This document shows, piece by piece, positions 5,469 through 27,679 of a DNA stretch of 35,139 bases. The position numbers were made by a program, and so were the translations under genes. The DNA lies in the NCBI GenBank assembly GCA_001516055.1, contig LOEZ01000095.1, positions 1 through 35,139 on the forward strand. The letters are read 5' to 3'. The DNA comes from Gracilibacter sp. BRH_c7a (GTDB lineage Bacteria > Bacillota > Desulfitobacteriia > Desulfitobacteriales > Syntrophobotulaceae). Each line of letters starts with the position of its first letter. The stretch's first letter is position 1. The notes beneath the pieces are model-generated. The model made no database searches. It was not told the DNA's origin and saw nothing but the letters and a program-made list of their open reading frames with translations.

Positions 5469-5500
5469 AAAAAGAGCCGTCATTCTAGACGGCTCTTTTT
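5469..5500. terminator. Bidirectional terminator between ytoQ and the chemoreceptor gene
   Basis: GAGCCGTC, a 6-base loop, and GACGGCTC form a perfect 8-bp GC-rich stem with A5 before and T5 after, extending it to 13 bp. It works in both orientations and lies 50 bases after ytoQ and 18 bases after the convergent chemoreceptor gene. Confidence 0.92.
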
Positions 5501-5518
5501 AATTGCATGATAGTAACC

Positions 5519-7522: not shown

Positions 7523-7639
7523 GACATTTCCCCCTTTCTTAGTTTTTTTATTGAATATTTCGAATTCATTCACATTACTTTAAAGTATAAAAGAGTGATG
7601 TTCTAATTTACATTAGCTGAATTGCCTAAAAATTTGTCG

Positions 7640-7678
7640 AAAAACACAGAATAGTTATCTCTTAGAGATAACTTTCTG
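7640..7678 (-). terminator. Stem-loop after the response-regulator gene, likely terminator
   Basis: A 21-base palindrome at 7653-7673 has perfect 10-bp arms (AGTTATCTCT and AGAGATAACT) around one base. It extends by CAGAA/TTCTG across a single bulged base. On the minus strand it is followed by TGTGTTTTTC and lies 32 bases past the regulator gene end. It also lies about 120 bases upstream of the chemoreceptor start, so an operator role cannot be excluded. Confidence 0.65.
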
Positions 7679-7710
7679 GACAGTACGAGTATTTAATTAC
7701 GCTTTTCTGT

Positions 7711-8982: not shown

Positions 8983-9124
8983 AATCAGGTGACATTGTAA
9001 TTATTTGAAATCATCCTTTAGCACTTTTAAATTTTTAACAAACTTTCTCAACATCTTCAACTCGAACATTAAGAAAGTTTAATACTTTACGTTCAAGGGT
9101 TTTCGGCTTACAACTATCTTAAAA

Positions 9125-11251
9125 TCAAAGAGGAAATTTCAGAATAAATTTAGTCCCTTGACCAAGACCGCTTTCGACTTCTACGTCTCCATGGTGCTTG
9201 TTTACCATAATATCATAGACGATACTTAAACCCAGACCAGTACCTTCCCCCACAGGCTTTGTCGTAAAAAACGGATTATATATCTTCCCGATATCGGCTT
9301 GAGAAATCCCTATTCCATTATCCATAATTTCACAACAAACGTGATTTTCCGTTTGGTAAGTAGAAATCGTGATTAACCCGGTCTGACTAATTTTTTTGGC
9401 TTTAATCGCATATGTGGCATTTAGTAGAATATTTAATAATACTTGATTGATTTGTCCTATATTACCTTTTATTAAGGGGATAGCAGTAAAGCATTGTTCA
9501 ACGTGCGCATAGTACTTATATTCATTAATAGCCACGATTAACGTATTCTTAATCCCTTCATGAAGATCAAACTCTATTACTTCTTCATCATTATCCATTC
9601 TTGAAAACGCGCACAAACCTTTAACAATATTTTCCACTCTTTCCAGGCCTTCTTGCATATCTACTATTATTTCATTAATCTCTACCACTATATTGTTCGA
9701 TGCGTTTTGCCGATTAAACTTAATAAACCTTTCGTTTAGTTCTGCCGGTAGAGAAGCTTTCTTGAAAAATTCTGTATATTTCCAGAAGTTCTCCGTCAAT
9801 ATTTTTAAGTAGTGTTGTAGCGTACTGCAGTTACTAATTACAAAAGCTAACGGGTTATTCATCTCATGCGCCACCCCCGCTGCTAACTGACCTATCCCCG
9901 CTAGCTGTTCCTGTTGGATTAATCGACTTTGTGTTTCTTTTAGCTTAATAATAGTGTCCTGTAAAGCTGCATTATTCTGTTTTAATTCATTTTCCATACT
10001 TAACCGTTCAGTCATATCCCTACCGATGCTCATTACCACTTGTTGCCCGCTTAGCATAAATAGATGGGAATTCATTTCAACCGGCACTTTTGTCCCATCC
10101 TTGGCTACGTAATCCATCTCATAAGTAATATGACCCAATTGGCGAATCGTATCTTGAAGTATATAAAGATGCGGAACAAACTCTGGAGTGCATAAATCTT
10201 CTGCTGTCATTGTAAAAAATTCTTCCCGAGAAAAGCCAGTCTTCTTGCAGGCTAAGTCATTCACCTCAATGAAGCGCATTTTTTGGCCTGATTCTTCTAA
10301 GGTGTGAACACAAATAATATCATTGGCATTACGAAATAGCTCTCTGAACTTTCTTTCACTTGCTTTCAACGCTTCTTCGACCTGCAGACGTTCAAAGGCA
10401 TTGCTAAATATTTCTGAGGTTAGGTGAAGAAGAGATAAGTCCTCACGCCGCCAGCCTCCTGTTGCGTGTATATTGTCAAATCCTACAAAACCAAATAACT
10501 TTCTTTGTACAAATATCGGTAGAATGAGCAAAGAAACTATCTCTTGATTCTCTATTGTTTCTTTTCCTTTAACAAGAACTATTTCTCCTTTATGTAACTT
10601 CTCTATCCACCATGGAAATGAAGTCGATGGTATTTGCTGTAGGTTTTCTATCTCCGACGATATGCCTTCTGCGCACCATTCATAAGTATTGTCCAACATA
10701 TTCCCATTATCACTAAAGAGAAAAATATAAGAACGACTAGCGTTACTAAAACGTCCCATATCCTCCAAAGACATATTCATTGCTTGGTTTATATCAGAAA
10801 AACTGATAAACCGCGAGGAAATCTTTGAGACCAGCAGTTCAAATGCCAACCTATGAGTTAAAACTTCCTCCTCAATCTTTCTTTTTTTTATCGGGGTCGC
10901 AGCAATCCTTACACCTATTATTTCTTCTTTATCTGAAAGGATTGGGCAATAACAGACTTCAACCCAATAACTAATACCATCTAGACCGATAATCTCTTGT
11001 TCATACTCGATTAGTTCTCCCTTGTAAGCTTTATCTACAGATACTTTAATACTATCGACCTGCTCTTTGGCAAAGTAGTCAAAAAATAATTGACCGCTCT
11101 TCAGTTCTTGGTTAAGTATATCTTTAAAATAGATATTCGCAGTTTTATTAAATTCTTGAACTACGTATTTCTTATCAAGGATTATTACTAGATTAGGGTC
11201 GCTATCAAAAATATGCTTAAATGATAATTCGAAGTTTTCCAATAAATTCAC
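9125..11251 (-). CDS. PAS-GAF-PAS sensor histidine kinase (708 aa)
   Basis: No membrane segment is visible, so it is probably a cytosolic sensor. Domain order: PAS (about 10-125, with FNKTANIYFKDI and YWVEVCYCPI), GAF (about 150-290, with SRSYIFLFSDNGNML and KLFGFVGFDNI), a second PAS (about 300-420, with FREEFFTMTAEDLC and SIGRDMTER), a coiled-coil linker, then the transmitter. The H-box is GQLAAGVAHEMNNP with H462, the N-box NQVLLNILLNATYAI, and the G-boxes DNGIG and GEGTGLGLSIV. The start is GTG at 11251 with a poor site, or TTG at 11242, which has GAGG 9 bases upstream. The PucR-type response regulator immediately downstream is the likely partner. The signal is unknown. Confidence 0.92.
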   Translation of the reverse strand: MNLLENFELSFKHIFDSDPNLVIILDKKYVVQEFNKTANIYFKDILNQELKSGQLFFDYFAKEQVDSIKVSVDKAYKGELIEYEQEIIGLDGISYWVEVCYCPILSDKEEIIGVRIAATPIKKRKIEEEVLTHRLAFELLVSKISSRFISFSDINQAMNMSLEDMGRFSNASRSYIFLFSDNGNMLDNTYEWCAEGISSEIENLQQIPSTSFPWWIEKLHKGEIVLVKGKETIENQEIVSLLILPIFVQRKLFGFVGFDNIHATGGWRREDLSLLHLTSEIFSNAFERLQVEEALKASERKFRELFRNANDIICVHTLEESGQKMRFIEVNDLACKKTGFSREEFFTMTAEDLCTPEFVPHLYILQDTIRQLGHITYEMDYVAKDGTKVPVEMNSHLFMLSGQQVVMSIGRDMTERLSMENELKQNNAALQDTIIKLKETQSRLIQQEQLAGIGQLAAGVAHEMNNPLAFVISNCSTLQHYLKILTENFWKYTEFFKKASLPAELNERFIKFNRQNASNNIVVEINEIIVDMQEGLERVENIVKGLCAFSRMDNDEEVIEFDLHEGIKNTLIVAINEYKYYAHVEQCFTAIPLIKGNIGQINQVLLNILLNATYAIKAKKISQTGLITISTYQTENHVCCEIMDNGIGISQADIGKIYNPFFTTKPVGEGTGLGLSIVYDIMVNKHHGDVEVESGLGQGTKFILKFPL

Positions 11252-11356
11252 CCTCGTGACTGCTATTCTAACTTATTGACACTCTTAATTTATCATATAT
11301 ATATCAACATAGAAACTGGCTAATTTTTACTGCTAACTATACAACTCTCCCCAATC

Positions 11357-11560
11357 CTAGTTCTTAAAACTATGAATCGGAGCCGGAATCCTTCCTCCTC
11401 TGTTGATAAACTCTTCCGAACTAAATTCATTTAGTGCCATAATCGGCATATAGCCTAGCAAACCACCGAATTCCGCCGTTTCTCCTACTCCTTTACCATG
11501 GACTGGGATAACTCGGACAGCGGTGGTTTTGTTATTAATAATCCCGATAGCTGCTTCATC
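11357..11560 (-). pseudogene. Dead 3'-end fragment of the UPF0210 gene (68 codons with stop)
   Basis: The 204 bases match 21702-21905, the last 68 codons of the intact UPF0210 gene, at 202 of 204 positions (offset 10345). The two differences are at 11504 (synonymous, Pro) and 11542 (Val to Ile). Homology ends exactly at the last base of the stop codon on one side and at DEAAIG on the other. Upstream in frame only 12 foreign codons precede a TAG, with no start codon, so it is not a gene. It lies directly after the terminator of the SLC13-type gene. The rest of the long gene-free stretch 11252-11658 holds that terminator, and near 11630 a plus-strand AAGGGAGG with no gene after it. Confidence 0.93.
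11357..11560. repeat. Left copy of a 204-bp direct repeat bounding the catabolic island
   Basis: This copy and 21702-21905 are in the same orientation, 99% identical, and 10,141 bases apart end to end. The island of seven genes lies exactly between them. No target-site duplication or integrase was seen. Confidence 0.93.
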
Positions 11561-11565
11561 GGTTT

Positions 11566-11610
11566 CAAAAAGAAATCCTGTCGTAATGCTAGATGGCTAA
11601 CTAGACAGGA
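11566..11610 (-). terminator. Terminator at the end of the LacI-to-SLC13 unit
   Basis: On the minus strand TCCTGTC and GACAGGA form a 7-bp stem around a 21-base loop (11576-11582 with 11604-11610), followed by ATTTCTTTTTG. It lies 48 bases past the SLC13-type gene and abuts the repeated UPF0210 fragment. Confidence 0.65.
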
Positions 11611-11658
11611 ATATATATAAAATAAATTCAAGGGAGGACATAATCATTAATAACTGGT

Positions 11659-13095
11659 TTATATCTTAAACTTCAATATTTCCAAACCAACCAATGGCCA
11701 GTAATAAAACGCACTTAATAAAGTGACAACGACTGTAATAACAGTAAGTATAATTCCTACTTTTAAATGGTCTTGGAAGGTGTGATGACCCAAAGAGAAA
11801 GCCGTCATCCCACTAATAGTCTGCATTGGAAATAAAAAGCAGATACTACTTCCGATCAGGGTAATCATCCCCAACCAAATAGGATTAATTGAAGTAATCT
11901 TAGCAAAGGTAAAGACCAAAGGCATGAAAGAAGCTACCATCATGGTGTAATTCAAAAAACCAATTCTTATAAGCACAAGCGTTATCATGAGAATCAAAGC
12001 CACAATGAGAGCGGACGTATCTCCTAGGTATTTTTCTGCTGTTAGAGAAAGCCATCCGGTAATCTCACTTACTTCTAGGGCATCGGCTATGCTAAAGCCT
12101 GCAGCAAAGGCAAATAAAACACTCCACTCTATCTTAGTCATGGACTCTTTCCAATCCAGCAGTCTAATACCAGGTAGAAAAAGAAGCGAAGCCACAAAGA
12201 CAGCTGACATTGCAAGGGAAAATCCGTGGAGACTCTTGGTTATCCATAACATGAGCAAGAGAGAATATAGAATCATTATTTTAACTTCTTGCTGGTTTAA
12301 TTCTCCTGCCTTACTTCTCTCTTTCAATAGAAATTCTTGATCTACGCGAATACGATTATCCCGAAAGAGGAACGTAATTATCACGATCCAAAAAATAACA
12401 ACAATCACTAAAACCACTGGCCCCATCATCATTAGCCATTCAATATAACTCCAACTCTTGCCCATCGTCTCAAAAAGTTGAGCAGCGTATAAAGTGCCCC
12501 CACCGCCGGTTATGACTCCGAAGGAACCTATGAATGGAACAAAAGTCATAGCTGGGATTATTATCTTGCCTAACCCTTTTATCCCTTGCAGCTCTACAGA
12601 TTTTAGAAGTCCTACACAGATAGGTAAGATTAAGACCATTCTTCCCAATACACTCGGTATAAAAAAAGTTAGTGATAACCCAAATAACATCATAAATAAA
12701 ATTATCAGCCTCAAATTACCTTTAGCCAAAAGAAACATATTATAAGCAATCCGTTTGTGGATGCTAGTTTTTTCAATCGCTTGGCCCATCATAAGGGTCG
12801 CAATCAGTAGCCAAATTATTTCTTTACCGAGATTCCCTGCTGCCTGTTCAAACGCCAATATATCGAAGGCGGAGAAAAGAAAAATGGTTATCATCCCGGT
12901 AACGGCAGCCGGGATGATATCAGTAATCCAAAGAATAATCGCCAAAACTATTATTGCAATCGTAGTAGGTCCTCTTTCTCCCATCCCACTTGGAACTGGC
13001 AGAAAGAATGAGACTGCTACTAATAGAAGAGCTAGAATAATTAAAGTAGGCTTTATTACCCTTATCCGTCTAATGTCCGAAATTATCTTCTTCAT
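11659..13095 (-). CDS. SLC13/DASS-family permease, divergent (478 aa)
   Basis: About twelve membrane segments are present, with the N-terminal part (IIPAAVTGMITIFLFSAFDIL, LGKEIIWLLIATLMMGQAIE) characteristic of the divalent anion:sodium symporter family. Members import dicarboxylates, tricarboxylates or sulfate. The two re-entrant hairpins are recognisable by position but unusual. Where most bacterial members carry GTPPN or SNT, this one has ITGGGGTLYAAQLF, and the second hairpin reads GSSICFLFPMQTISGMTAF. Substrate specificity is therefore not predicted. The start ATG at 13095 has AGAGGA 8 bases upstream. It is the last gene of the LacI-headed unit, 68 bases after the beta-propeller gene, and a terminator follows. 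Confidence 0.82.
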   Translation of the reverse strand: MKKIISDIRRIRVIKPTLIILALLLVAVSFFLPVPSGMGERGPTTIAIIVLAIILWITDIIPAAVTGMITIFLFSAFDILAFEQAAGNLGKEIIWLLIATLMMGQAIEKTSIHKRIAYNMFLLAKGNLRLIILFMMLFGLSLTFFIPSVLGRMVLILPICVGLLKSVELQGIKGLGKIIIPAMTFVPFIGSFGVITGGGGTLYAAQLFETMGKSWSYIEWLMMMGPVVLVIVVIFWIVIITFLFRDNRIRVDQEFLLKERSKAGELNQQEVKIMILYSLLLMLWITKSLHGFSLAMSAVFVASLLFLPGIRLLDWKESMTKIEWSVLFAFAAGFSIADALEVSEITGWLSLTAEKYLGDTSALIVALILMITLVLIRIGFLNYTMMVASFMPLVFTFAKITSINPIWLGMITLIGSSICFLFPMQTISGMTAFSLGHHTFQDHLKVGIILTVITVVVTLLSAFYYWPLVGLEILKFKI

Positions 13096-13163
13096 ATCAT
13101 GATTCCTCTAATCCCTAGTTGTTCTAACGAGGCGAGATCGGAACAAATATCGGGATAATTATC

Positions 13164-14210
13164 TTAAGGTGTATAAATTTTTCTTTCAGCAGGCGTTTCC
13201 CATAGCTGCCCTTGTGGACTTTTTTCCCAAGCTTCGAGATCTAATAACCCTATCCCCCTACCGAGCCCGGGAGCATCGGTTCTGGTATTCACCATGAAGG
13301 CCAGCCACTTTCCATCAGGGCTAACATTACAGTTACTGCAGCGCCAAGGAGCACGCCCTAGCGATTGAGTCATTCTCACCCTTTCCCCAGACCCATCAAG
13401 CTTAAGCTTCCACAGATCAATCGGAGGCCAGTAATTTTCAAAATCACAAGAAGATTCAAGCGTAATATATTCATGATCCGGGAAGATCCCTTCACATTCA
13501 TTATGCGTCATAGGCTCATCGATATATATCTGAACCTCTCCTGTTTCCAGGTGGACACCTTTCACTACACATTTCCAGTTAGTAGTGTCTCTTTTAGGGA
13601 AACGGTTGACATACTCCGCAAAGATTAGCTCTTTATCATCGTAGCGAAAATCTTGTGGTTCCGGGACTCTTCGCCCCTTAGCCTTATATACAACCCGGTC
13701 CTCTCCAAGTTCAGGCCCATCAGCTCCGTACACGATCTCCGTAACATGTATCTCGAAATCATCTTCAGTACCTATGCTTGAATCATGATTACCGTTCATG
13801 GAATATGCTATTCTATTCGCAATAGCTGATACCGCACATCCCTCAAATATCCTTCTGCCCAACGGTTTCGGTGGGTTTTTGGCTTCTTTATCGAGAATCC
13901 ATAGTTCGGATTCCACATGACGGCTAACTTCATAATTCTTAAAATCTCTGGGGCCGATGAGTAAGTAATCCCCATTGGGCAATACAAGAACTCTTAGAAA
14001 AGAGTGGTACAATCCTTTGTCCTTAGTAAGATTACGTACTACTTTAGTCTCGAGGTCAATCTCACAGACATCCCCAAAACTATTCTCTATAAACGCAAGT
14101 TTCTTACCATCGGGAGTCCAATAAGGTCTCTCCCCATAGTCTAGAAGCCCGTAATGAAACTCGGGAGGGTCATCGAAAAAATGTGGTCCATCATAAGGTT
14201 TTTTATCCAT
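13164..14210 (-). CDS. TolB/PD40-like beta-propeller protein, cytosolic (348 aa)
   Basis: Several blade motifs of the PD40/TolB type are visible: WTPDGKKLAFIENSFGDVCE near residue 31, VLPNGDYLLI, and VSPDGKWLAFMVNTRTDAPG near the C-terminus. Between them lie aspartate- and histidine-rich loops, including MTHNECEGIFPDHEYITLES. No signal peptide is present. The fold is shared by oligogalacturonate lyase (family PL22) and by TolB-like binding proteins; the NExEGIFPD stretch looks conserved and could be an active-site or metal region. That is inference. The gene follows the glycosidase-like gene by 21 bases with a GGGAG ribosome site, so the two products probably act in one pathway. Confidence 0.75.
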   Translation of the reverse strand: MDKKPYDGPHFFDDPPEFHYGLLDYGERPYWTPDGKKLAFIENSFGDVCEIDLETKVVRNLTKDKGLYHSFLRVLVLPNGDYLLIGPRDFKNYEVSRHVESELWILDKEAKNPPKPLGRRIFEGCAVSAIANRIAYSMNGNHDSSIGTEDDFEIHVTEIVYGADGPELGEDRVVYKAKGRRVPEPQDFRYDDKELIFAEYVNRFPKRDTTNWKCVVKGVHLETGEVQIYIDEPMTHNECEGIFPDHEYITLESSCDFENYWPPIDLWKLKLDGSGERVRMTQSLGRAPWRCSNCNVSPDGKWLAFMVNTRTDAPGLGRGIGLLDLEAWEKSPQGQLWETPAERKIYTP

Positions 14211-14231
14211 CAGAATAACTCCCTTCTTTAT

Positions 14232-16361
14232 CTACTCGAAAACAACGATTTCATGATCAGATAATTCTGGCACGGTAACTTCTGCCCAGCCATTTACATA
14301 TTTCGGTTCAAGAGTGAGGTTGCTATTAAGAAGCCGTACCTTAGTTAAATTCTCAATCTTAAGCTTTACTGTAATGTCTTTAGCAGGGATAATGGTCTGC
14401 CCTGGTCTTCTCCAACCTGTATTCAAATGTATCCCTACAGGGTAGTTTATCAGATGTACTAATTTTCTCTCGGATTGAGAAACGTAAGCAATCTCAATAT
14501 TTTCCGGTGCAGAGACGATTATATCAGCCGCCTCTCCTAGTCCAGCCCAAACAGCATTGGCAAGGAGCATCCCTAAGTCCCTAAACCCATATCTGTAGAA
14601 AAGAAGATCCATTTGATTGGAGAAATAAACAGTCTTCCCTTCACCATATCCGCCATAAGAAAGAATAGGATGGTCAGTAGTAACGTCTATCAAACTGTAC
14701 TCAGGTATACTGATGGTCGACCCTGCATGAGCCTGGACAGGAGGTATTAGGGTTAGTGGTACAGTCCTTGACGCATCGGGTCTGAATAAGACCATGGAGC
14801 CATCATTCGGAAGAATATCAGTGTCTCCTATACCTTTTAGCATCTCATCATCTCTAATCTCGATATTGGCGTAAGAAGATTTAAGATTATCGCGAGTATA
14901 TCCCAGATATTCCCCACCGAACGCTTCTTCAAATAACGGTTTATCCCGTTTCTTACCCATTTCATCAAACATACCCGTTTCGAACGTAGTAATCACCGTT
15001 CCACCATCTCTAGCAAATTTCCGGACAGCTTCGGCACTATCATCCGACATACAGGCAGTATTAGGCAAGATCAAGACTGAGTATTTGTCTAGATTCTTAG
15101 AACATAGGAATTTATCTGAAAGAATATCAAAGGGAATGTGATTCTCTATTAGTGCAAGATAATAACCTCTAAAATGATCTAGATACTTTTTCTCAGGAGA
15201 ATCTCCCGCGTAATTATCCATGGTAAATCTGGAATACACCAAAGCAGTTTTGGCAACTGATTTAGCATCATCAAAGTATTCAGCCCATCTACCCTGTCTG
15301 TTCATCACCTCCTGAAGAGGCTTATATCCCCGACGGTCAAAGTAATCTGAATACCCTCCATTGATATGGAGCCAAGTGGATGTCCCAAAGGCAAACTGCT
15401 GAGCTAACCAGAAACGGTTTTCTTCCTCGGGAGCAGAATATACTCTCCACCAAGGATAGAAATAGCTGGCAGTCATCCATCGAGGTTTATCAGGAGCATT
15501 GGTCTGCAAGTATTTAGCCTGAGCTCCCGGCCACCAAGGCACAGTATAGCGTCGCTGACACTCAACTGTAATTACATCCTGATGCTCAATCCAGTAGTCC
15601 ACATCCCAGCCACCTGGCCTAGAGAAATCCCATGACTCCATAAGTTGTACAGCTGCCGTCCACACTACCTCAGGCTTGATCTGGTTCTTAAGATCATGTA
15701 CTTTTTTAATCCATTTCGCAATTTGTTTATAACGCCATTCGTTGAAAGTCAACCAGATTGGGTCTTTCCAGTCCTCCTCCATAGGAATATCAAAGCCTGA
15801 ATCTTCTTTAAAAATCCTACGACAGTTGTTACAATAGCAAGTTCCAGTATCCCAAGCACTAAATTTACCATGATTGTTCCACATACCATCTATATCATAG
15901 TTTTCCAAGAGTTCCCGCACTATCAAGAGCATATATTCGTTATAGTAACCACCATTGGGGCAGGTTACATAATGCCCGCTCACCGGGTACATGTTCCCAT
16001 CTTTATCCCTGGAGAACCATTCCGGATGCTTTTCTGAGTGTATCTTAGAAGCACAGCTTGGGTCGATACGAGCTAGAACTTTGAGTCCCTCTCTATGGGC
16101 GACTGGGATCACATCTGCCAATAGGTCTCTATCTCCAAGACTTTTGCTCTTGGGATGATCGAGTACTTTTGTATCATAGAAAGCTACTATGCCACCACCA
16201 TTTAGGCTAAAAGCAGTCGCATCAAATTTTTGAGCATTGGCAACCAGTTCTTCGGGAACTAATTTATGTTCGTCCCCTTCTCTGATATTGATGAGAAGCA
16301 AACGATTAGGCTCTTCCCACCATTTCTTATCTTGTGGCGATGTATGGTGCTGTTGTTCCAT
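14232..16361 (-). CDS. Glycosidase-like TIM-barrel protein with beta-galactosidase-type trimerisation domain (709 aa)
   Basis: ATG at 16361 follows AGGAGG closely. Residues about 18-345 form a TIM-barrel like Pfam Hyp_GHL_6: HPEWFSRDKDGNMY, TCPNGGYYNEYML, then DIDGMWNNHG (157-165) and the cysteine cluster CYCNNC (175-180). Residues about 372-610 resemble the class-I-glutaminase-like trimerisation domain of GH42 beta-galactosidases (YSVLILPNTACMSDDSAEAV, FARDGGTVITTFETGMFDE). A C-terminal beta domain ends DHEIVVFE. No signal peptide: the enzyme is cytosolic. The usual acidic residue after DG(I/M) is Asn here; E267 in VITVECQRR is a candidate acid. The substrate is unknown; the context suggests an imported oligomer or glycoside. 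Confidence 0.75.
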   Translation of the reverse strand: MEQQHHTSPQDKKWWEEPNRLLLINIREGDEHKLVPEELVANAQKFDATAFSLNGGGIVAFYDTKVLDHPKSKSLGDRDLLADVIPVAHREGLKVLARIDPSCASKIHSEKHPEWFSRDKDGNMYPVSGHYVTCPNGGYYNEYMLLIVRELLENYDIDGMWNNHGKFSAWDTGTCYCNNCRRIFKEDSGFDIPMEEDWKDPIWLTFNEWRYKQIAKWIKKVHDLKNQIKPEVVWTAAVQLMESWDFSRPGGWDVDYWIEHQDVITVECQRRYTVPWWPGAQAKYLQTNAPDKPRWMTASYFYPWWRVYSAPEEENRFWLAQQFAFGTSTWLHINGGYSDYFDRRGYKPLQEVMNRQGRWAEYFDDAKSVAKTALVYSRFTMDNYAGDSPEKKYLDHFRGYYLALIENHIPFDILSDKFLCSKNLDKYSVLILPNTACMSDDSAEAVRKFARDGGTVITTFETGMFDEMGKKRDKPLFEEAFGGEYLGYTRDNLKSSYANIEIRDDEMLKGIGDTDILPNDGSMVLFRPDASRTVPLTLIPPVQAHAGSTISIPEYSLIDVTTDHPILSYGGYGEGKTVYFSNQMDLLFYRYGFRDLGMLLANAVWAGLGEAADIIVSAPENIEIAYVSQSERKLVHLINYPVGIHLNTGWRRPGQTIIPAKDITVKLKIENLTKVRLLNSNLTLEPKYVNGWAEVTVPELSDHEIVVFE

Positions 16362-16370
16362 AGTGCCCTC

Positions 16371-17120
16371 CTATTTTGCTAGTTTAATTTTGTAATTTGT
16401 TGCTATAGATGAATTCGTATCGATAAATAGTGTGATTTCACAATCTCCTGTTTCATCAAAGACAATGTTCTTGTCTTGAAAGCTTAATGGGCGATCATGA
16501 CCACAGATTAACTTTTTCACACCCATATCTAAAATCATTTTTTGACTTGTTTTCAATTCTCTTATATCACCGAAGGTCCCCTGAGGAACTTCCGGCAGAA
16601 GATTTATTTCCCAAGCGTATTTAAAGAGATCACCACATATTCCTGTTCTATCTCCATTTGGTAAATCTACAACAACGCTTGAACTTCCTGGTGTATGGCC
16701 AGGTGTCAGTAAACAACGTATATCCTGGCTTATCTTTAACTCGTTATAGAAAACCACCAGACCGCGGTTTTCGATTCTTTCCAAAATATCTGGTATGAAA
16801 ACGTCTCCAACCTCAAGGTATTTTTTGTCTTTAACATATTCATATTCAGCACGACTCAATACAAACGACGCTTTTGTAAACAGATCATAATTGAGACAGT
16901 GATCAAAATGCAGATGAGTTAATATAACCCGATTTACCTCATCCGGTTCAATCCTGTTATCCTTCAAAGCTTGTAACAGGTGATGCCTGTTCCCATGGAA
17001 ACCTGTATCGACTAGTATTATCTCATCCTCGTTCTGTATAAGGGTAACGCTGGACCATCCGAGGGCCCCATCACTACCAGTGATGGGAACCCCTTTCAGG
17101 AGTGGAATGATCCTTGTCAT
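16371..17120 (-). CDS. Metallo-beta-lactamase-fold hydrolase, lactonase-like (249 aa)
   Basis: The metal-binding motif HLHFDH is at residues 69-74 (H69, H71, D73, H74). TPGHTPGSSSV supplies the third histidine, CGDLF the bridging aspartate, and CGHDRP the last histidine. This layout matches the quorum-quenching lactonase-like branch of the superfamily, whose members open lactones, but the reaction here is not fixed by sequence. In this operon a sugar-lactone or ester hydrolase is a reasonable guess. The start codon follows the stop of the binding-protein gene by one base (TAA-C-ATG), implying translational coupling, and the next gene begins 9 bases after its stop. Confidence 0.85.
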   Translation of the reverse strand: MTRIIPLLKGVPITGSDGALGWSSVTLIQNEDEIILVDTGFHGNRHHLLQALKDNRIEPDEVNRVILTHLHFDHCLNYDLFTKASFVLSRAEYEYVKDKKYLEVGDVFIPDILERIENRGLVVFYNELKISQDIRCLLTPGHTPGSSSVVVDLPNGDRTGICGDLFKYAWEINLLPEVPQGTFGDIRELKTSQKMILDMGVKKLICGHDRPLSFQDKNIVFDETGDCEITLFIDTNSSIATNYKIKLAK

Positions 17121-17121
17121 G

Positions 17122-18159
17122 TTAAATAAATCCTAATTCTTTATAAGCTCTTTCTGCCCCAGGGTGAAGAGGAACAATAGTTCCTTTCCAAGCATTCTCT
17201 GGTTCAAATGATTCAAAGGCTTTTTGACCGTTGAACCATTTCTCTTTATTCTCGAGGATTATCTTAGTTGTCTCATAGATTACTTCTTCAGGAGCATCTT
17301 TATGGGTGAAGACAATAGTATCTTCCATAAAGGTATTTACAGATTGATTAAGTGAAAACCAATCTGCAGGAGCTTGGAATTCCATAAAGCCATAGTTATC
17401 TACTAACTTGCTTACAATCTCATCGTCTATTTGCAGATATACAATGTCACGAGCACTTTCTAGTTCCTGTAAATCCGCTGCATGCGGCACATATGTCTGC
17501 CAAACTGCATCTGCATGACCGTTAACAACCGCTGCTACGCCATCAGAGGTGCTACTATAGGTTACTTTCCCACCCCAAGACTCAATGGTCTCGTAAGTAA
17601 GTCCATATGCTTCAAGCATTTTTCTAGTTGCAATCTCTCCACCTGTACCACGGTCTTTGGTGAATAGACGAAGCTTCGGCTTAGTCTCTAGGTATTGACC
17701 TAATGTAGTAACTCCCTCGGGAACCTTATCTTTTAAGACTGGTGCTAGGAACAGGGATTGCCTATTCAAGCGAACCATTGCTCTAACATTTTCAATTGGT
17801 CCTTTAGTTTGAGTAGCAAAATCGCCTTGGTGTTTTGTTCCATCGTAAAGAACAGTATTGAAGGCCAGTCCCATTATCATCTCATCTTCACTCTGCTCAA
17901 GCTTGACAACATTGGTGAAGCTTCCACCCATTACAGTTGAACCTTTAAAACCTTTTACGTTCTTTTCCCATTCATCCACGAACATCGCTCCAGCGGCCAT
18001 GTAACCGCCACCTTGGCTTCCAGTCAAAATAGTGAAATTGTACGTCTTAGCATCTCCAGAATCTGATCCGGTACTAGATGGAGTCGGAGCCGATGAACTA
18101 CACCCTACTAGAGCAATCGTGAGCATCGTAATTAATACTAATGTTAAAACTTTACGCAT
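17122..18159 (-). CDS. TAXI-family TRAP transporter substrate-binding lipoprotein (345 aa)
   Basis: The N-terminus is a lipoprotein signal, MRKVLTLVLITMLTIALVGC, with the lipobox LVGC followed by a serine-rich linker. The mature part carries TAXI features: TILTGSQGGGYMAAGAMFVD near the ligand site, the mid-protein RLFTKDRGTGGEIATRKMLE, and HADAVWQTYVPHAADLQELE. It captures a small solute outside the membrane and passes it to the fused permease encoded 69 bases upstream. TAXI ligands known elsewhere include glutamate and other organic acids; the ligand here is not predictable. A strong AAGGAGGAAG site precedes the ATG. Confidence 0.93.
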   Translation of the reverse strand: MRKVLTLVLITMLTIALVGCSSSAPTPSSTGSDSGDAKTYNFTILTGSQGGGYMAAGAMFVDEWEKNVKGFKGSTVMGGSFTNVVKLEQSEDEMIMGLAFNTVLYDGTKHQGDFATQTKGPIENVRAMVRLNRQSLFLAPVLKDKVPEGVTTLGQYLETKPKLRLFTKDRGTGGEIATRKMLEAYGLTYETIESWGGKVTYSSTSDGVAAVVNGHADAVWQTYVPHAADLQELESARDIVYLQIDDEIVSKLVDNYGFMEFQAPADWFSLNQSVNTFMEDTIVFTHKDAPEEVIYETTKIILENKEKWFNGQKAFESFEPENAWKGTIVPLHPGAERAYKELGFI

Positions 18160-18228
18160 TCTTTCTTCCTCCTTGATTTTTATTATTTCCCTTTTAGTAC
18201 CTTTGATATCTAAGGACCATATTATCTC

Positions 18229-20325
18229 CTATTTATTTATCACCCCACCTTCATATTGAGCACCTGTTTTCCCCAATATTGCCTTCAATGGATTTACTCT
18301 AGCTCTGATAGTCTGTAATATTACGACTATTGCCAACAGGCCAAACCCAATCAGGTCGCTGTCAAACCCAGGCTTAATCAGGAGTAAAGCTATACTTGCC
18401 ATCATCAGCCTCTCATACCAGCGTGATTTGGCAACCAGGTAACCTTGTACCGCAGAAGCTAGAGATATGATACCAACGGCTGCTGTGAGTGCAGCCGGAA
18501 GAGATTGGGCAATATTTCCTCGATAGAGAAGTGATGGACTGTAGACGAACATCACTGGCAGGATATACGCTGCGATTCCGATTCTTACAGCTTGTGTCCC
18601 GGCTTTGAACATAGTTGATCCAGCTATCGACGCCGCTGCATAAGCACTCATACAGACAGGTGGAGTTATAGTCGCTAAAATTGCATAGTAGAAGACGAAC
18701 ATATATGCCACGAAGCGATCTATACCGAGTTCTAATAATACAGGGACACCAAAGAGTGAAGCGATGATAAAAGATACTACAATTGGTAGATCCATACCCA
18801 ATAAAATGGTAGATACCGCAATCAGAGCAAGGGCTACAGGAAGTTGTCCTCCTGAGAGGTCAAGAATGGCTGCAGAGAATTTAAATGGCACCCCCGAGAG
18901 CTCTGTTGTGCCTACAATCAGTCCTGCACATCCAATAGCTATAGCGATAGGTGTCGCTTTTTTACCGGTATCAACCAAAGTGTGAATGAATTTATCTAAA
19001 TTGATTCTGGAGTGCCTTCTAAAGAAACTGGTTACTACCAAAGCCATAGAAGCATAGAACGCTGCAAAATATGGTGTAAAATCCTGTAATAACAAAAAGA
19101 CAAGTAAGATTATGGGTAATAACAGGTGGGCATCTCTACGAAATACATCTTTCAAGTTTTTAATGTCTTCAGATCTATACATAGGCAGATCTGTTTTTAA
19201 AGCTTGGAAGTGAACCATCCAGTAAATAGCCAAAAGGTACAAGAAAGCAGGGATAGCTGAAGCTAAAGCAACATCTTTATAAGCACTTCCTGTAAATTCA
19301 GCTATAAGGAAGGCAGCTGAACCCATGATTGGTGGCAGAACCTGTCCTGATGCTGAAGATACAGCTTCAACCCCCGCCGCGAAAGATCTCTTAAAACCTG
19401 TTTTGATCATTAGCGGAATAGTTATTGAACCGGTTGTATAAACATTGGCTACTGCACTACCAGAAATCATTCCGAAAAACGCACTGGCTATGACCGCTGC
19501 TTTAGCTGGTCCCCCTCGGGCTTTCTTAGTTGCTGAAATAGCCATATCCATGAAAAATTGGGATGCTCCTACAGTTTGCAGGAAACTTCCGAATAGAATG
19601 AACAGGAAAATAAATGTAGCCGACACCCCCACAATACTGCCATAAATTCCAGTAGTAGTTAGGAAAATATGATCAATAAACTGGTTGAATTTTACCCCTG
19701 GATGGTAAAGGATACCGGGCATATACTGGCCAAGAAGAGAATGTCCGATAAAAATTATCGCCAGTCCTACGAGACCCCAACCTACTACCCTTCGAGCAAG
19801 TTCTAAAATTAGAACAATTAGAATAATTCCAAAAATAAAATCTAAAGAGCTTAAAGGATCAAGATATGGATATCTCCAGGTAATCCTTTCATAGTTAAAC
19901 TGGATATGAAGTACTACTAAAATCGACATGATAGCAAAAGTCCAGTCATACCAGGGAATTCTTGTTTTCTTAACTCTCTTAGAGAAAGGATAGAGACAAA
20001 AACCCAAAAACATGGCAAACCCAAGATGAACAGGTCTTAGCCGGAATGGCTCAGGCATTCCCATAAAAGCTATTATTAGATGATACATACTCATGGCTGC
20101 CGCACCCCAGTAAACAACTTTGGCATGAAAACCTGTGAGTAAGCGCTGTCCAGCCGTTCGGTTACTCTCTCCTTCTTCACGTGCTTCTAGGGAGTTATCA
20201 TTCTTTTCCCCTTCAGCTTGGATCTCAGGAGTCATTATTTCTTGTTCGGCACTAATTTTAGATTCATAATCTGGAGAGTTAACTTGCTGTTCGTTAGTTT
20301 GATGATTAGATTTATTTTCCTTCAT
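18229..20325 (-). CDS. Fused DctQM-type TRAP transporter permease (698 aa)
   Basis: I chose ATG at 20325, which has GAGAGGAG 6-7 bases upstream and overlaps the regulator gene by 14 bases. The upstream ATG at 20382 would lengthen the overlap. A charged N-terminal tail of about 60 residues is followed by four segments (small Q-type subunit), then about twelve more (large M-type subunit): GGPAKAAVIASAFFGMISGS, EAVSSASGQVLPPIMGSAAF, TITPPVCMSAYAAASIAGS. The C-terminal part resembles the extra DUF3394-like region of TAXI permeases. It couples uptake to an ion gradient together with the TAXI binding protein. The long acidic N-terminal tail is unusual and may be regulatory. Confidence 0.93.
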   Translation of the reverse strand: MKENKSNHQTNEQQVNSPDYESKISAEQEIMTPEIQAEGEKNDNSLEAREEGESNRTAGQRLLTGFHAKVVYWGAAAMSMYHLIIAFMGMPEPFRLRPVHLGFAMFLGFCLYPFSKRVKKTRIPWYDWTFAIMSILVVLHIQFNYERITWRYPYLDPLSSLDFIFGIILIVLILELARRVVGWGLVGLAIIFIGHSLLGQYMPGILYHPGVKFNQFIDHIFLTTTGIYGSIVGVSATFIFLFILFGSFLQTVGASQFFMDMAISATKKARGGPAKAAVIASAFFGMISGSAVANVYTTGSITIPLMIKTGFKRSFAAGVEAVSSASGQVLPPIMGSAAFLIAEFTGSAYKDVALASAIPAFLYLLAIYWMVHFQALKTDLPMYRSEDIKNLKDVFRRDAHLLLPIILLVFLLLQDFTPYFAAFYASMALVVTSFFRRHSRINLDKFIHTLVDTGKKATPIAIAIGCAGLIVGTTELSGVPFKFSAAILDLSGGQLPVALALIAVSTILLGMDLPIVVSFIIASLFGVPVLLELGIDRFVAYMFVFYYAILATITPPVCMSAYAAASIAGSTMFKAGTQAVRIGIAAYILPVMFVYSPSLLYRGNIAQSLPAALTAAVGIISLASAVQGYLVAKSRWYERLMMASIALLLIKPGFDSDLIGFGLLAIVVILQTIRARVNPLKAILGKTGAQYEGGVINK

Positions 20326-21364
20326 GTATTGCTCCTCTCTTTGAACTGATCTCCTTCGTAGTGCCTCTAACAACGAGTTCACATGGGAGAATCTCTTTCA
20401 ATGGTTCATCTCTTAGTCCATTAATCTCCTCTAGGATATACTCTGCAGCCATCTTTCCTGCTCTAAAAATAGGGAAGTTCACAGTGGTCAAACCTGGATC
20501 TGCATATTCACTAAAGAATTGATTATTAAAACCTACAACCGAGATATCTTCCGGTACCCGTAACCCTCTCTTATTCCAAGCCTGGATGGCACCGAGTGCC
20601 ATTGCATCATTAGCAATAAAGGCAGCAGTGGGCATTTTTTCTTGACTGAAAGACTCAATCATCTTTTCGGCCATTTCGCCACCCGCTTTATACTGATCTC
20701 CATCATTTTCAAAAACCAGGTCCTCATCAAAAGCTATACCATAATGTTCTAAAGCCCAAAGATAACCCTTATACCTACGAGCGAAGGCATTATGCACCCC
20801 ATCATCTTTCGGTCCACTCATATAAGCGATTCTTTCGTGTCCTAATTTTATAAGGTGTTTAATTGCATTGAATCCCCCACGGAAAGTGTCGATCATGATT
20901 TGGTTTATGGTAGGATCTTCAGTACTACGATTGATGAGAATGATTGGGATCCCTTTTTCTCGGAAACTGTAGATATGGTTATAATTTGAAGTCTCTGAAG
21001 CAGAAACAATTATAGCTCCGTCAACATCTCTTTCCTCTAGCATTTGGATTAACTTTATTTCTTTATCTAGCTTTTTCTCTGTGTTTCCAAGAATCATACT
21101 GTAACCATGCTGATCAAGAACTTCTTCTATCGCTTTAATAATTGGAGGATACAGAGGATTAGTTATATTAGAAATAATAACTCCTATAGTATTCGTAACT
21201 TTTTTGATGTGCTGCACGGGTTGTTCATAATTAAGCTCTTTAATCACTGCTAGGACTTTTTCTCTTTTTTCTGGGCGAACCTTATCAGGTGTCTTGAGTA
21301 CATTAACTACTGTTCCTAGAGAGACTCCCGACAATTTTGCTATTTCACGTATGCTTGTCGACAA
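20312..21364 (-). CDS. LacI-family transcriptional regulator (350 aa)
   Basis: The N-terminal helix-turn-helix reads SIREIAKLSGVSLGTVVNVL with the hinge region after NYEQPVQ. A periplasmic-binding-protein-like sensor follows, with IGVIISNITNPLYPPIIKAI, RDVDGAIIVSA, HERIAYMSGP and PEDISVVGFNN. The start is TTG at 21364, with GGAGG 10 bases upstream. It is the first gene of the unit and is co-transcribed with the transporter, so autoregulation is likely. Palindromic TTTTGAAC boxes flank its promoter. LacI regulators mostly sense sugars or sugar derivatives, which hints at a carbohydrate-related inducer although the transporter is of an organic-acid type. Confidence 0.95.
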   Translation of the reverse strand: MSTSIREIAKLSGVSLGTVVNVLKTPDKVRPEKREKVLAVIKELNYEQPVQHIKKVTNTIGVIISNITNPLYPPIIKAIEEVLDQHGYSMILGNTEKKLDKEIKLIQMLEERDVDGAIIVSASETSNYNHIYSFREKGIPIILINRSTEDPTINQIMIDTFRGGFNAIKHLIKLGHERIAYMSGPKDDGVHNAFARRYKGYLWALEHYGIAFDEDLVFENDGDQYKAGGEMAEKMIESFSQEKMPTAAFIANDAMALGAIQAWNKRGLRVPEDISVVGFNNQFFSEYADPGLTTVNFPIFRAGKMAAEYILEEINGLRDEPLKEILPCELVVRGTTKEISSKRGAIHEGK

Positions 21365-21437
21365 TCCATTCTCCCTCCTCTCCTATGTTCAATTCACTTC
21401 TTAAAACTTTTTTCTCTTCCGTTGACTCACTTAAACC

Positions 21438-21466
21438 TTTTTTGAACACTTTTTGAACATTTCAAA
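21438..21466 (-). promoter_or_regulatory. Downstream operator cluster of the LacI-type regulator
   Basis: TTTGAAC occurs at 21441-21447, and an inverted repeat TTTGAA-CAT-TTCAAA at 21452-21466. The latter lies about 10-25 bases downstream of the expected transcription start, a classic repressor position. The half-site is the same as in the long palindrome at 21549-21568. Confidence 0.65.
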
Positions 21467-21482
21467 TTATTCTGTTAATTCT

Positions 21483-21510
21483 ATTATATCTGAAAATGCA
21501 TATTTTTCAA
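21483..21510 (-). promoter_or_regulatory. Sigma-A-type promoter of the LacI-headed unit
   Basis: On the minus strand TTGAAA (21505-21510) and TATAAT (21483-21488) are separated by 16 bases. The start of transcription would be near 21476, about 110 bases upstream of the TTG start codon. Confidence 0.65.
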
Positions 21511-21548
21511 CAATTATATTCCATAATACAAATATTTTATAATCATTT

Positions 21549-21568
21549 TATTTTGAACGTTCAAAATA
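21549..21568 (-). promoter_or_regulatory. Perfect 20-bp palindromic operator
   Basis: The site is two perfect 10-base arms, TATTTTGAAC and GTTCAAAATA, meeting at a central CG, as in many LacI/PurR-family operators. It lies about 73-92 bases upstream of the predicted transcription start. Its centre is about 100 bases from the downstream operator, so looping across the promoter is possible. Two more half-sites of the same type occur at 21601-21617. Confidence 0.75.
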
Positions 21569-21616
21569 TGTAGCCCTTTTAATCACAAACAATACGATAT
21601 TTTGAACACTTGAACA

Positions 21617-21673
21617 AATAAAAAAGGGTTATCTTCAGCATTACTTATTAAATAGCCAGAGATATCCCTTTTC
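21617..21673 (-). terminator. Terminator of the UPF0210 gene
   Basis: On the minus strand AAAAGGG-A-TATCT pairs with AGATA-A-CCCTTTT (one mismatch), followed by TTATTTG. It lies 30 bases past the UPF0210 stop and separates that gene from the LacI unit, which is read in the same direction. Confidence 0.7.
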
Positions 21674-21701
21674 TATACGGTTATATTTGCCCACCTTTTA
21701 T

Positions 21702-21905
21702 CTAGTTCTTAAAACTATGAATCGGAGCCGGAATCCTTCCTCCTCTGTTGATAAACTCTTCCGAACTAAATTCATTTAGTGCCATAATCGGCATATAGCC
21801 TAGCAAACCACCGAATTCCGCCGTTTCTCCTACTCCTTTACCATGGACCGGGATAACTCGGACAGCGGTGGTTTTGTTATTAATAACCCCGATAGCTGCT
21901 TCATC
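21702..21905. repeat. Right copy of the 204-bp direct repeat (3' end of the UPF0210 gene)
   Basis: This copy is in frame with the intact UPF0210 gene and matches 11357-11560 at all but two positions. Beyond 21701 and 21905 no similarity to the left copy's flanks is seen. Confidence 0.93.
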
Positions 21906-23060
21906 AGCGATAATGGCGGAAATTGTTGATTCCTTGGTATCTCCAGGGACAGCAATCATATCCAAGCCCACCGAGCAGACACTAGTCATAGCTTCCAGCT
22001 TATCAAAGGTAAGTGCTCCGTTTTGGACAGCACTAATCATCCCCTCATCCTCACTCACCGGGATAAAGGCTCCACTTAGTCCCCCTACTGAAGACGAGGC
22101 CATGATACCACCTTTCTTCACCGCATCATTAAGCATTGCAAGTGCCGCAGTGGTCCCGTGGGTACCGCAGGCTTCCAAGCCCATCTCTTCCAGAATTCGT
22201 GCTACGCTATCCCCAATTTCCGGGGTCGGAGCAAGCGAGAGATCAAGGATTCCGAATGGAACTCCCAGCCTGTTAGATACTTCGTTACCAATTAACTGTC
22301 CAGCCCTGGTTATCTTAAAAGCAGTCTTCTTGATATTTTCAGCAACTATATGTAGAGGCTCTCCTTTGACTTTCTCCATAGCGCACTTCACCACTCCCGG
22401 TCCACTAACCCCTACGTTAACAACTACTTCTGGTTCCCCTACACCATGAAAAGCACCGGCCATAAAGGGATTATCATCTACCGCATTGGCGAATATCACA
22501 AGCTTGGCACAGCCTAGAGAATCCCTGTCTCGGCTCAAGTAAGCAGTATCCTTAATAATCTTGCCCATCAGCTTGACGGCATCCATATTAATACCTGCTT
22601 TGGTACTGGCAATATTAACCGAGGAACATACCCGTTCAGTCTCATTTAAAGCTTGGGGTATAGAATCTATCAGAATCCTGTCTCCGTTGGCAAAACCTTT
22701 CTGAACCAAGGCCGAAAAGCCGCCAATAAAATTAACTCCAACTTCTTTAGCTGCCTTATCTAAAATCTTTGCGAACTCAAAGTAATTATCCTCTCCACTG
22801 GCTGAAGCAATTAAAGCAATTGGCGTCACAGCAATTCTCTTATTAATGATAGGAATCCCGTATTCCATTTCAATCTGATCACCGACTTTAACCAGATTCT
22901 GAGCATAGCCCGTTATCTTATCATAAATCCTCTGCCTTGACTTATCTCCCGAGGAATCGATACAGTCCAAAAGCGAAATTCCCATAGTGATCGTTCTGAT
23001 ATCCAACTTTTCTTTCTCAATCATCCGAACAGTTTCAAAAATATTATTATATAACGTCAT
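21702..23060 (-). CDS. UPF0210 (DUF711) family protein (452 aa)
   Basis: The protein matches the UPF0210/DUF711 family over its whole length: [20 protein letters not shown] near the N-terminus, [33 protein letters not shown], and [20 protein letters not shown], in the middle; [20 protein letters not shown] and [13 protein letters not shown] at the C-terminus. Length is as expected. The biochemical role is not established. The small ACT protein encoded 47 bases upstream (UPF0237) is its usual neighbour, also in streptococci, so the ACT protein may regulate or bind it. The last 68 codons are duplicated at 11357-11560, and the gene ends exactly where the repeat ends. Confidence 0.92.
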
Positions 23061-23107
23061 TAAGTACTCTCCCCTTCATGTTCTCGCAAATGGCGACTAA
23101 GTCGCCG

Positions 23108-23377
23108 CTAGATATTATGCATGTAATTAAAAATCTCTTCCCTCTGAACTTTTACCGATATCCCTATCTCTTCACCGAAGTTCTCCAACTGTTGCTTAAA
23201 AGTGTTGAATTCACCTTTCATATTGGCAAGATTAACCAGCATCATCATTGTAAAATACCCTTTTAGAATAGTCTGGTTAATATCTTCCACACTGACATTA
23301 TAATCAACCAGTACCTTGCTGACACCATGGATAATACCTACCTGGTCTTTGCCTACAACTGTAATTATTCCTTTCAT
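23108..23377 (-). CDS. UPF0237-type ACT-domain protein (89 aa)
   Basis: ATG at 23377 follows GGGGGTG; a longer frame from 23434 has no site. A single ACT domain fills the protein: MKGIITVVGKDQVGIIHGVS, the Gly-Ile/Val loop typical of ligand-binding ACT domains, then VDYNVSVEDINQTILKGYFT and MMMLVNLANMKGEFNTF. GcvR-like ACT proteins bind amino acids or other small effectors. The gene pair with UPF0210 downstream is conserved in Firmicutes, so a two-protein function is likely, though not known. Confidence 0.9.
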   Translation of the reverse strand: MKGIITVVGKDQVGIIHGVSKVLVDYNVSVEDINQTILKGYFTMMMLVNLANMKGEFNTFKQQLENFGEEIGISVKVQREEIFNYMHNI

Positions 23378-23526
23378 TATTACACCCCCTTGATTTATAT
23401 ATATTGTATCACTAAGCAACCGAAACGCACCCAAGAAAGTTTTTAATTGAATTCCCTCACATCTTTATGTAATAATCTACTTATACATATTATCACCTAA
23501 TATTTTACAGAAAAGGAGTGTCCTTA

Positions 23527-24690
23527 ATGCTTAATTTCAACTATGATATCCCCACGAAAGTATTCTTCGGCAAAGGCCAAATATCGGTTCTAGCTGAACA
23601 GATCAAGCACTACGGTTCCAAGGTGTTATTGGTATACGGTGGGGGAAGTATCAAAAAGTATGGCATCTATGATATTGTCACTTCTATCTTAAAAGAGAAT
23701 AATATTCCATATTGGGAACTAGGCGGTGTGGACTCTAACCCTCGGATTACCAGCGTCAGAGCGGGAATCAAGATATGCCGGGAAAATTCAATCGACTTCA
23801 TCCTCCCCGTTGGTGGGGGAAGTGCTATAGACTGTGCCAAGGCTATCGCTATTGGATTTTACTCTGACAGCGATCCCTGGTATCTGATAACCAAACAAGC
23901 GGAAAGCAAAAACGCCCTACCCATTGGGACAGTACTTACCTTAGCGGCCACCGGTTCAGAGATGAATATGAATGCCGTAATCAGCAACTTAGACACCATC
24001 CAAAAATTTGTTGTCTTCCATCCACTTATTAAACCTAAGTTCTCCATCCTGGATCCTACCTATACCTTTACCGTCCCTGCCTATCATACGGCTGCTGGGG
24101 TGGCCGATATCATGAGCCATACCCTCGAATGCTATTTCGGTCATGTTAAAGATGCCTACCTGGTGGATAAAATAGCGGAGGCCATCCTCTTGACCTGTAT
24201 CAAATATGGACCAGTCGTAGTGAGTGAGCCGGAAAACTACGAAGCTAGGGCCAATATTCTCTGGGCTTCCAGTCTGGCGTTAAATGGTTTACTCAAATAC
24301 GGAAAAGAAACTGGTTGGTGTGTCCATCCTATGGAGCATGAATTGAGTGCTTATTATGATATTAGCCACGGTGCGGGGTTGGCAGTCTTAACCCCCAACT
24401 GGATGAATTACGTACTAAATGATCATACAGTTGATCAAATCTCCCAGTATGGCATTAATGTCTGGGGATTACCTGCTCAAGAAGATAAATACTCTACCGC
24501 AAATCAGGCCATCGCCTTAACCAGAGAATTTTTCATCTCAATCGGCCTGCCTACTACTTTGACAGAGATGGGAATCCCCGAGGAAAAACTTGCTGTAATG
24601 GCCAAATCTGCAGTGAACGGCGGGACAATAAGTAGTTTTAGGCCTTTAAATGCTCAGGACGTACTCAATATTTACCTGAACTCTTTGTAA
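23527..24690 (+). CDS. Iron-type alcohol dehydrogenase, butanol-dehydrogenase-like (387 aa)
   Basis: ATG at 23527 has AAAGGAG 8 bases upstream; a GTG at 23518 overlaps that site. The N-terminal NAD(P)-binding domain carries VLLVYGGGSIKKYG and PVGGGSAIDCAKAIAIG. The metal-binding half has the GVADIMSHTLECYFG segment, then HPMEHELSAYYDISHGAGLA, with the expected Asp and three His ligands. The pattern is that of the BdhA/YqhD branch, which reduces aldehydes with NADPH. It is a single gene, divergent from the ACT/UPF0210 pair and converging on the ABC permease gene after only 15 bases, with no terminator visible between them. The physiological aldehyde is not predictable. Confidence 0.93.
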   Translation: MLNFNYDIPTKVFFGKGQISVLAEQIKHYGSKVLLVYGGGSIKKYGIYDIVTSILKENNIPYWELGGVDSNPRITSVRAGIKICRENSIDFILPVGGGSAIDCAKAIAIGFYSDSDPWYLITKQAESKNALPIGTVLTLAATGSEMNMNAVISNLDTIQKFVVFHPLIKPKFSILDPTYTFTVPAYHTAAGVADIMSHTLECYFGHVKDAYLVDKIAEAILLTCIKYGPVVVSEPENYEARANILWASSLALNGLLKYGKETGWCVHPMEHELSAYYDISHGAGLAVLTPNWMNYVLNDHTVDQISQYGINVWGLPAQEDKYSTANQAIALTREFFISIGLPTTLTEMGIPEEKLAVMAKSAVNGGTISSFRPLNAQDVLNIYLNSL

Positions 24691-24705
24691 CTTTACTTAT
24701 ATATA

Positions 24706-25872: not shown

Positions 25873-25884
25873 ACTTTGCCTTCC

Positions 25885-27664: not shown

Positions 27665-27679
27665 CAATGTGTAATTATG

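Follow-up and report, generated by a model that had tools for sequence, protein, structure and literature searches.

A candidate catabolic operon for an acidic sugar derivative in Gracilibacter sp. BRH_c7a pairs a GH151-like barrel and a conserved beta-propeller with TAXI-TRAP and DASS transporters

Seven genes at 11659-21364 of a 35,139-nt stretch (hereafter the window) of contig LOEZ01000095.1 of Gracilibacter sp. BRH_c7a, a genome of 4.1 Mb in 98 contigs, are read here, on balance and with modest confidence, as an operon that was gained horizontally and serves the catabolism of a small, negatively charged sugar derivative: a sugar acid or its lactone, or else a glycoside of a sugar acid. 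The operon is a variant of an uncharacterised propeller–GHL6 catabolic module with exchanged transporters, and the GHL6 and propeller components appear to be conserved proteins that nobody has characterised. No paper describing this gene set was found by the literature search terms used. The original prediction of an import and degradation operon of undescribed type, with cytoplasmic enzymes under a LacI regulator, was borne out, and its substrate class, an acidic sugar derivative, remains the leading hypothesis. The prediction did not cover the operator cluster, the duplication of 204 bp of DUF711 or the absence from a sister species, all described below.

Gene content and organization

All seven open reading frames are present on the minus strand, in the order and with the families that had been predicted, as judged from Pfam and TIGR matches. 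The first encodes a LacI-family repressor (20312..21364; PF00356/PF13377, listed start TTG) and is followed by genes for a fused TRAP permease of 699 aa (18229..20325; TIGR02123), a TAXI solute-binding lipoprotein (17122..18159; TIGR02122), a lactonase-like metallo-beta-lactamase-fold hydrolase (MBL) with a complete metal site (16371..17120), a GHL6/GH151-like (beta/alpha)8 protein with a GH42M domain, assigned by Pfam and structure matches (14232..16361), a PD40 (TolB-like) beta-propeller, which is the best-conserved member of the gene set and carries no export signal (13164..14210), and a divergent DASS/SLC13-type permease (11659..13095; PF00939, E 2.5e-54). The gaps between the TAXI, MBL, GHL6 and propeller genes are 1, 9 and 21 nt, respectively, those between TRAP and TAXI and between propeller and DASS are 68-69 nt, and the LacI and TRAP genes overlap by 14 nt. 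The best start for the permease is the ATG at 20325, with the ribosome-binding site AGAGAGGAG ahead of it; the listed GTG at 20382 is less likely. The seven genes are a real operon. Neither Rfam models nor a tRNA search gave a match in the window.

Predicted operator, promoter and terminators

A 20-bp perfect palindrome, TATTTTGAAC/GTTCAAAATA with a central CG (21549..21568, unstranded; sequence TATTTTGAACGTTCAAAATA), is situated just upstream of the promoter match and is the probable LacI operator. Three half-site copies surround it, one at 21600..21611 (TTTTGAACACTT) and two side by side at 21440..21462 (TTTTGAACA(C/T)TT), likewise unstranded. LacI-family operators are typically central-CG palindromes, and local control of the operon by its own LacI is thus likely, as far as the sequence goes. 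The 16-bp core of the palindrome occurs exactly once in the 4.1-Mb genome; all other genomic matches to it have two mismatches each, and their count is not above that of a reversed control pattern.

The single promoter that had been proposed was recovered in part. A predicted sigma-70 promoter, TTGAAA-16-TATAAT (21483..21510, minus strand), matches at 11 of 12 positions about 120 nt ahead of LacI and is the best in the region, but the region as a whole does not exceed chance in the number of such matches (43 found, 40 expected). Likewise, the terminator scan listed none at the end of the operon, where one had been claimed, but folding revealed a terminator-like hairpin and T-run after DASS (11563..11610, minus strand; -12.5 kcal/mol, z -3.4), with the hairpin itself at 11576-11610 followed by TTTCTTTTT. 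A second hairpin and T-run past DUF711 (21610..21690, minus strand; -21.2 kcal/mol, z -4.3), also terminator-like, separates the operon from that gene.

Probable acquisition of the operon

The operon sits between an intact DUF711 gene (21702-23060) and a truncated duplicate comprising the final 204 bp of that gene, which bounds it at 11357..11560 (minus strand) and is identical at 202 of 204 positions to the matching 3' end of the intact gene at 21702..21905 (minus strand). A sister species (genome G001) has DUF711 with a protein 97% identical, and since the intact copy agrees with G001 at both differing sites, the truncated copy is the derived one. The G001 contig aligns with positions 1-5503 (less 1623-2838) and 21697-33643 (less short gaps, including 23423-24707) of the window. 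With synteny preserved on both sides, the intervening approximately 16 kb, 5504-21696, is absent from G001 and 637 unrelated bases are found instead. Also missing from the G001 contig are two ORFs at 1617-2237 and 2247-2816, which belong to a series of ORFs of similar size, and one at 23518-24690.

Besides the operon, the 16-kb stretch holds three minus-strand genes, encoding a chemoreceptor (5519-7573), a CdaR-like response regulator with GGDEF_2/HTH_30 (PucR HTH) domains (7711-8982) and a PAS/GAF histidine kinase (9125-11251). A chemoreceptor gene also adjoins the MBL gene of Shinella (L003, 5628-7523). The absence of the 16 kb from the sister species, together with the duplicated DUF711 end bounding the block, indicates from sequence comparison that the block was probably gained horizontally, and integration, by homology, of DNA that brought along a DUF711 end would account for the duplication. 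A caveat to this order of segments is that the genome, in 98 contigs, had to be assembled across a repeat of 204 bp. The four flanks of the direct repeat could alternatively pair as an excised 10-kb circle with the operon and an uninterrupted chromosome.

The propeller–GHL6 core in other genomes

A profile of the propeller, searched against 84,980 species, returned two groups of homologues. The first, at 53-67% identity, covers Bacilli, Lachnospiraceae, Alpha- and Betaproteobacteria, Actinomycetes and Chloroflexota, i.e. at least four phyla, and the second, at 31-39% identity, is found mainly in Acidobacteria and Bacteroidota. Within the phylum of the window, a clear homologue is present in only 1 of 398 genomes; six weak profile matches in the same phylum (E about 1e-4) cover short stretches and were taken as unrelated PD40 repeats. 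A tandem pair of propeller genes with 64-65% identity to that of the window is found in Paenibacillus agricola (L009, 10001-12161).

The neighbours of 27 first-group propeller genes (the window, L003 and L007-L031) were searched by tblastn. A GHL6 gene was located within 10 kb of the propeller gene in nine of these loci (the window, L003, L011, L012, L014, L015, L019, L030 and L031), two of them from Betaproteobacteria with GHL6 identities of 54-55%, and an MBL gene is present too in five of the 27. MBL genes are found beside the propeller–GHL6 pair in Shinella and Rhizobium, the MBL of the operon being 31.7% identical to that of Shinella. In Paenibacillus cremeus the GHL6 gene is about 13 kb from the propeller gene on the same contig and strand, and among 17 further genomes with a propeller gene, 11 have a GHL6 homologue at some location. 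The corresponding figure for the order of the window is 1 of 74 genomes, the window's own only; no p-value is given for this comparison, as the two sets were sampled differently and searched with other thresholds. Two conserved large proteins of about 880 and 700 aa also adjoin propeller and GHL6 genes (L007, 2046-6977; L142, 4370-13784), and the members scanned have no Pfam match.

The transporter beside this core varies. Dpp-like ABC genes are found in Shinella-type loci, carbohydrate-type ABC genes (judged by size and order) in Paenibacillus and Lachnospiraceae, and adjacent TctC receptors of the tripartite tricarboxylate type in Betaproteobacteria. No TAXI-TRAP or DASS genes were seen near the propeller or GHL6 genes of relatives, nor was the full seven-gene set seen elsewhere, and the combination of TAXI and DASS thus looks specific to this lineage. 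Conservation of the neighbouring genes, which had been expected for the whole set, consequently holds for the enzymes but not for the transporters. Organic anions are the cargo of tricarboxylate, TRAP and DASS systems; LacI regulators and sugar ABC systems indicate sugar. An acidic sugar derivative would fit both, and the mixture of carbohydrate and organic-anion signals noted earlier in the operon is reinforced by the recurrence of the enzyme pair beside sugar-type or carboxylate-type transporters and hydroxy-acid enzymes in distant phyla.

Gene context and the substrate class

GHL6 clusters of relatives contain GlxR (tartronate-semialdehyde reductase), an OtnI-type isomerase and glycerate kinase, and propeller loci contain LarA, glycerate kinase and enolase-superfamily proteins, the latter closest to sugar-acid dehydratases at scores below every curated cut-off. 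By analogy, this context suggests that the products enter C3-C4 hydroxy-acid metabolism. Many of the GHL6 proteins beside hydroxy-acid genes are only 24-29% identical to that of the operon, and the sugar-acid genes sit in the relatives, the operon of the window being without any; the host genome yielded a single glycerate kinase and a single clear enolase-superfamily protein, neither of them on this contig. The relatives' clusters share a GlxR-type reductase, glycerate kinase, enolase-superfamily dehydratase-like proteins and a sugar-diacid regulator with galactarate/glucarate-type pathways (dehydratase, GarL, GarR/GlxR and GarK; CdaR), whereas the operon studied here contains none of those enzymes. 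A cluster in Lachnospiraceae CE91-St56 (L143, 5766-15170) combines four GHL6 genes with three 2-hydroxyacid dehydrogenases, a GlxR-type reductase, a MOFRL glycerate kinase and a Diacid_rec sugar-diacid regulator, and is a good place for finding the substrate of the GHL6 clade.

In place of sugar-acid genes, some relatives carry genes for Amidohydro_2, Rieske and PhyH proteins, which are not indicative of sugar acids. Together with the location of relatives on plasmids of Shinella sp. HZN7 and of a tomato-associated Sphingobium, and with an MBL protein whose closest matches are N-acyl-homoserine lactonases and related hydrolases, these genes favour a non-sugar natural product (aromatic, alkaloid or lactone) on which GHL6 and the propeller would do unusual chemistry. 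We consider such a substrate unlikely, since LacI, sugar ABC transporters, and the GlxR, OtnI, glycerate kinase and sugar-diacid regulator genes in other GHL6 clusters indicate sugar-acid chemistry.

The GHL6 protein

The GHL6 protein matches PF14871 at 70.1 bits (curated Pfam cut-off 35). Over its full length it resembles the GH151 alpha-L-fucosidase 6tvk (Paenibacillus thiaminolyticus ALfuk2; Foldseek E 3.6e-32), with which it shares the architecture of a (beta/alpha)8 barrel, a Rossmann-like middle domain and a C-terminal beta-sandwich; a VIA superposition aligned 615 residues at Z 25.8, rmsd 4.3 and 18% identity. The structure model used has a mean pLDDT of 69 and a pTM of 0.79. An alpha-L-fucosidase reported under GHL6, Mfuc3, has since been moved to GH151.

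The catalytic nucleophile of GH151 is Asp154 (PMC10154630). In a profile alignment this residue, at the end of strand beta-4, pairs with Asn163 of the GHL6 protein, chain residue 183 of 6tvk being taken as Asp154 from the entry's own numbering, since the chain has a 29-residue tag. Asn occupies the nucleophile position in 23 of 23 non-redundant GHL6 homologues (24-57% identity). In the same set Arg98, Asp100, Asp342 and Arg344 are invariant where aligned, and Gln269 and Arg271 are conserved in 22 and 20 of the 23, respectively. Position 267, at the end of strand beta-6, is Glu in 11, Asp in 11 and Ser in one; GH151 enzymes have their general acid/base Glu235 at the end of this strand, and position 267 may be its counterpart. 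In the model, Arg98, Asn163 and Glu267 are found at the C-terminal ends of barrel strands, the usual place of an active site, and Arg98, Asp100, Gln269 and Arg271 are at or beside strand ends, where they would be suitable for binding an acidic ligand. The conserved barrel residues and the Asn at the nucleophile position indicate a site that is under selection yet unlike that of GH151.

GHL6 differs from the GH151 fucosidases in its Asn for the nucleophile Asp, in the conserved Arg98/Asp100 and Gln269/Arg271, and in its gene context. By its sequence, it is a GH151-like barrel and not a canonical GH151 fucosidase; candidate reactions are substrate assistance, inversion or a non-hydrolytic conversion. 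We know of no TAXI, tricarboxylate or DASS transporter for neutral oligosaccharides, and no fucose pathway genes were seen in the window. Both points, and the replacement of Asp154 (PMC10154630) in all 23 homologues, argue against an ordinary glycoside operon, in which GHL6 would be a working GH151-type exo-glycosidase that takes up an imported oligosaccharide and cleaves off fucose or another neutral sugar like it, a reading which we regard as improbable in spite of the LacI regulator and of the full-length structure and profile matches that make 6tvk the best hit. The earlier label 'glycosidase' does not hold in its ordinary sense.

Transport proteins

The single fused TRAP membrane component adjoining the TAXI gene scores 616.5 bits against TIGR02123 (cut-off 320.65; E 5.7e-185), and the TAXI protein scores 120.5 bits against TIGR02122, above the family cut-off of 84.35. 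The DASS permease scores 185.5 bits against PF00939 (Na_sulph_symp; curated cut-off 27) and 172.8 bits against TIGR00785, below the cut-off of 198.6, and is thus indeed divergent, as had been proposed. Searches with the TAXI and DASS proteins, which covered plasmids only, gave no conserved neighbourhood and distant matches, at best 29% and 27% identity, respectively. Breakdown of the substrate inside the cell had been called unusual for a TRAP-imported compound; this is contradicted by sialate and dicarboxylates, which are imported by TRAP systems and undergo catabolism inside the cell.

Characterised TAXI proteins bind glutamate or 2-oxoglutarate, and in VcGluP of Vibrio cholerae Gln93 contacts the ligand (PMC11574862). 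VcGluP and the 2-oxoglutarate TAXI system of Proteus mirabilis likewise consist of a TAXI binding protein and one fused membrane component, whereas the operon studied here adds LacI, GHL6, the propeller, MBL and the DASS permease. In the alignment, which has a 2-residue insertion nearby, the Gln93 position is Phe in the operon's TAXI protein, making binding of glutamate in the VcGluP manner unlikely. The known TAXI ligands (PMC11574862) and the failure to find the full set elsewhere would agree with a chance assembly, that is, TRAP-TAXI uptake of a common acid such as 2-oxoglutarate or glutamate sharing an operon with unrelated enzymes. Beyond the Phe at the ligand-contacting position, however, the tight gene spacing, the single operator and the recurrence of GHL6 and propeller (and MBL) beside different transporters in several phyla make this quite improbable.

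Propeller and MBL hydrolase

The propeller model is confident (pLDDT 94), and fold searches with it gave generic TolB-like, SMP30-like and PL22 matches only, with no stand-out. PL22 oligogalacturonate lyases and TolB-like propellers, both among the top Foldseek matches, have PD40-type propellers of like size, whereas the propeller of the operon is only 12-16% identical to them. Arg28, Arg73, Glu123, Gln186, Asn237, Glu238 and Glu240 are conserved, and this Arg/Glu/Gln/Asn set may line the central pocket. The overall fold resembles PL22, with no PL22 Pfam match and no invariant His among 41 homologues. First-group propellers and their GHL6 partners have no signal peptide, as judged from visual inspection and a simple hydropathy scan, whereas Sphingobium homologues have one; a cytoplasmic location is thus likely common to the first group.

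In the MBL protein the metal ligands are complete (HxHxDH at 69-74, H142, D164 and H208), and by sequence it resembles lactonases only distantly. Quorum quenching, with MBL degrading acyl-homoserine lactones and the transporters scavenging the products, is very improbable, because the AiiA/AttM similarity that speaks for it is weak (E about 1e-13) and reaches 51.8 bits against the AHL lactonase equivalog, far below the cut-off of 390, because the operon is without acyl-chain catabolism genes, and because GHL6 and the propeller would be left unexplained.

Proposed pathway and significance

Under the favoured reading, a catabolic operon for an acidic sugar derivative, LacI on the palindromic operator would keep the operon off until an inducer appears. 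The TAXI lipoprotein would then capture the substrate and the fused TRAP permease import it, with DASS possibly serving as a second importer or product exchanger. Two proteins, the GHL6/GH151-like barrel and the propeller, would act on the substrate in the cytoplasm, and MBL, from its family, might open a lactone or ester. The product may pass to hydroxy-acid metabolism, as GHL6-type genes in relatives lie beside those for tartronate-semialdehyde reductase, glycerate kinase and sugar-acid-dehydratase-like proteins. A bolder and more doubtful proposal, which we put forward tentatively, is that the propeller-paired GHL6 clade uses the GH151 scaffold as a new class of enzyme. Its reaction on an acidic sugar would be substrate-assisted, inverting or non-hydrolytic and would depend on the Asn that replaces the nucleophile and on the conserved arginines, and the propeller would be its partner in a catalytic or presenting role. 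Both would belong to a sugar-acid pathway that has passed from phylum to phylum and whose transporters can be swapped.

The compact operon brings together, along with a binding protein and a repressor of its own, two protein groups that have no function assigned: the clade of PF14871 in which Asn takes the place of the nucleophile, and a family of PD40 propellers that retains 53-67% identity across phyla. Since the substrate can be approached independently through the TAXI ligand and through the LacI inducer, one ligand screen could open the pathway. Very few ligands of TAXI transporters are known, and one found here would widen that class; the pathway thereby opened would serve soil Rhizobiales, Burkholderiales, Paenibacillus, Chloroflexota and gut Lachnospiraceae alike.
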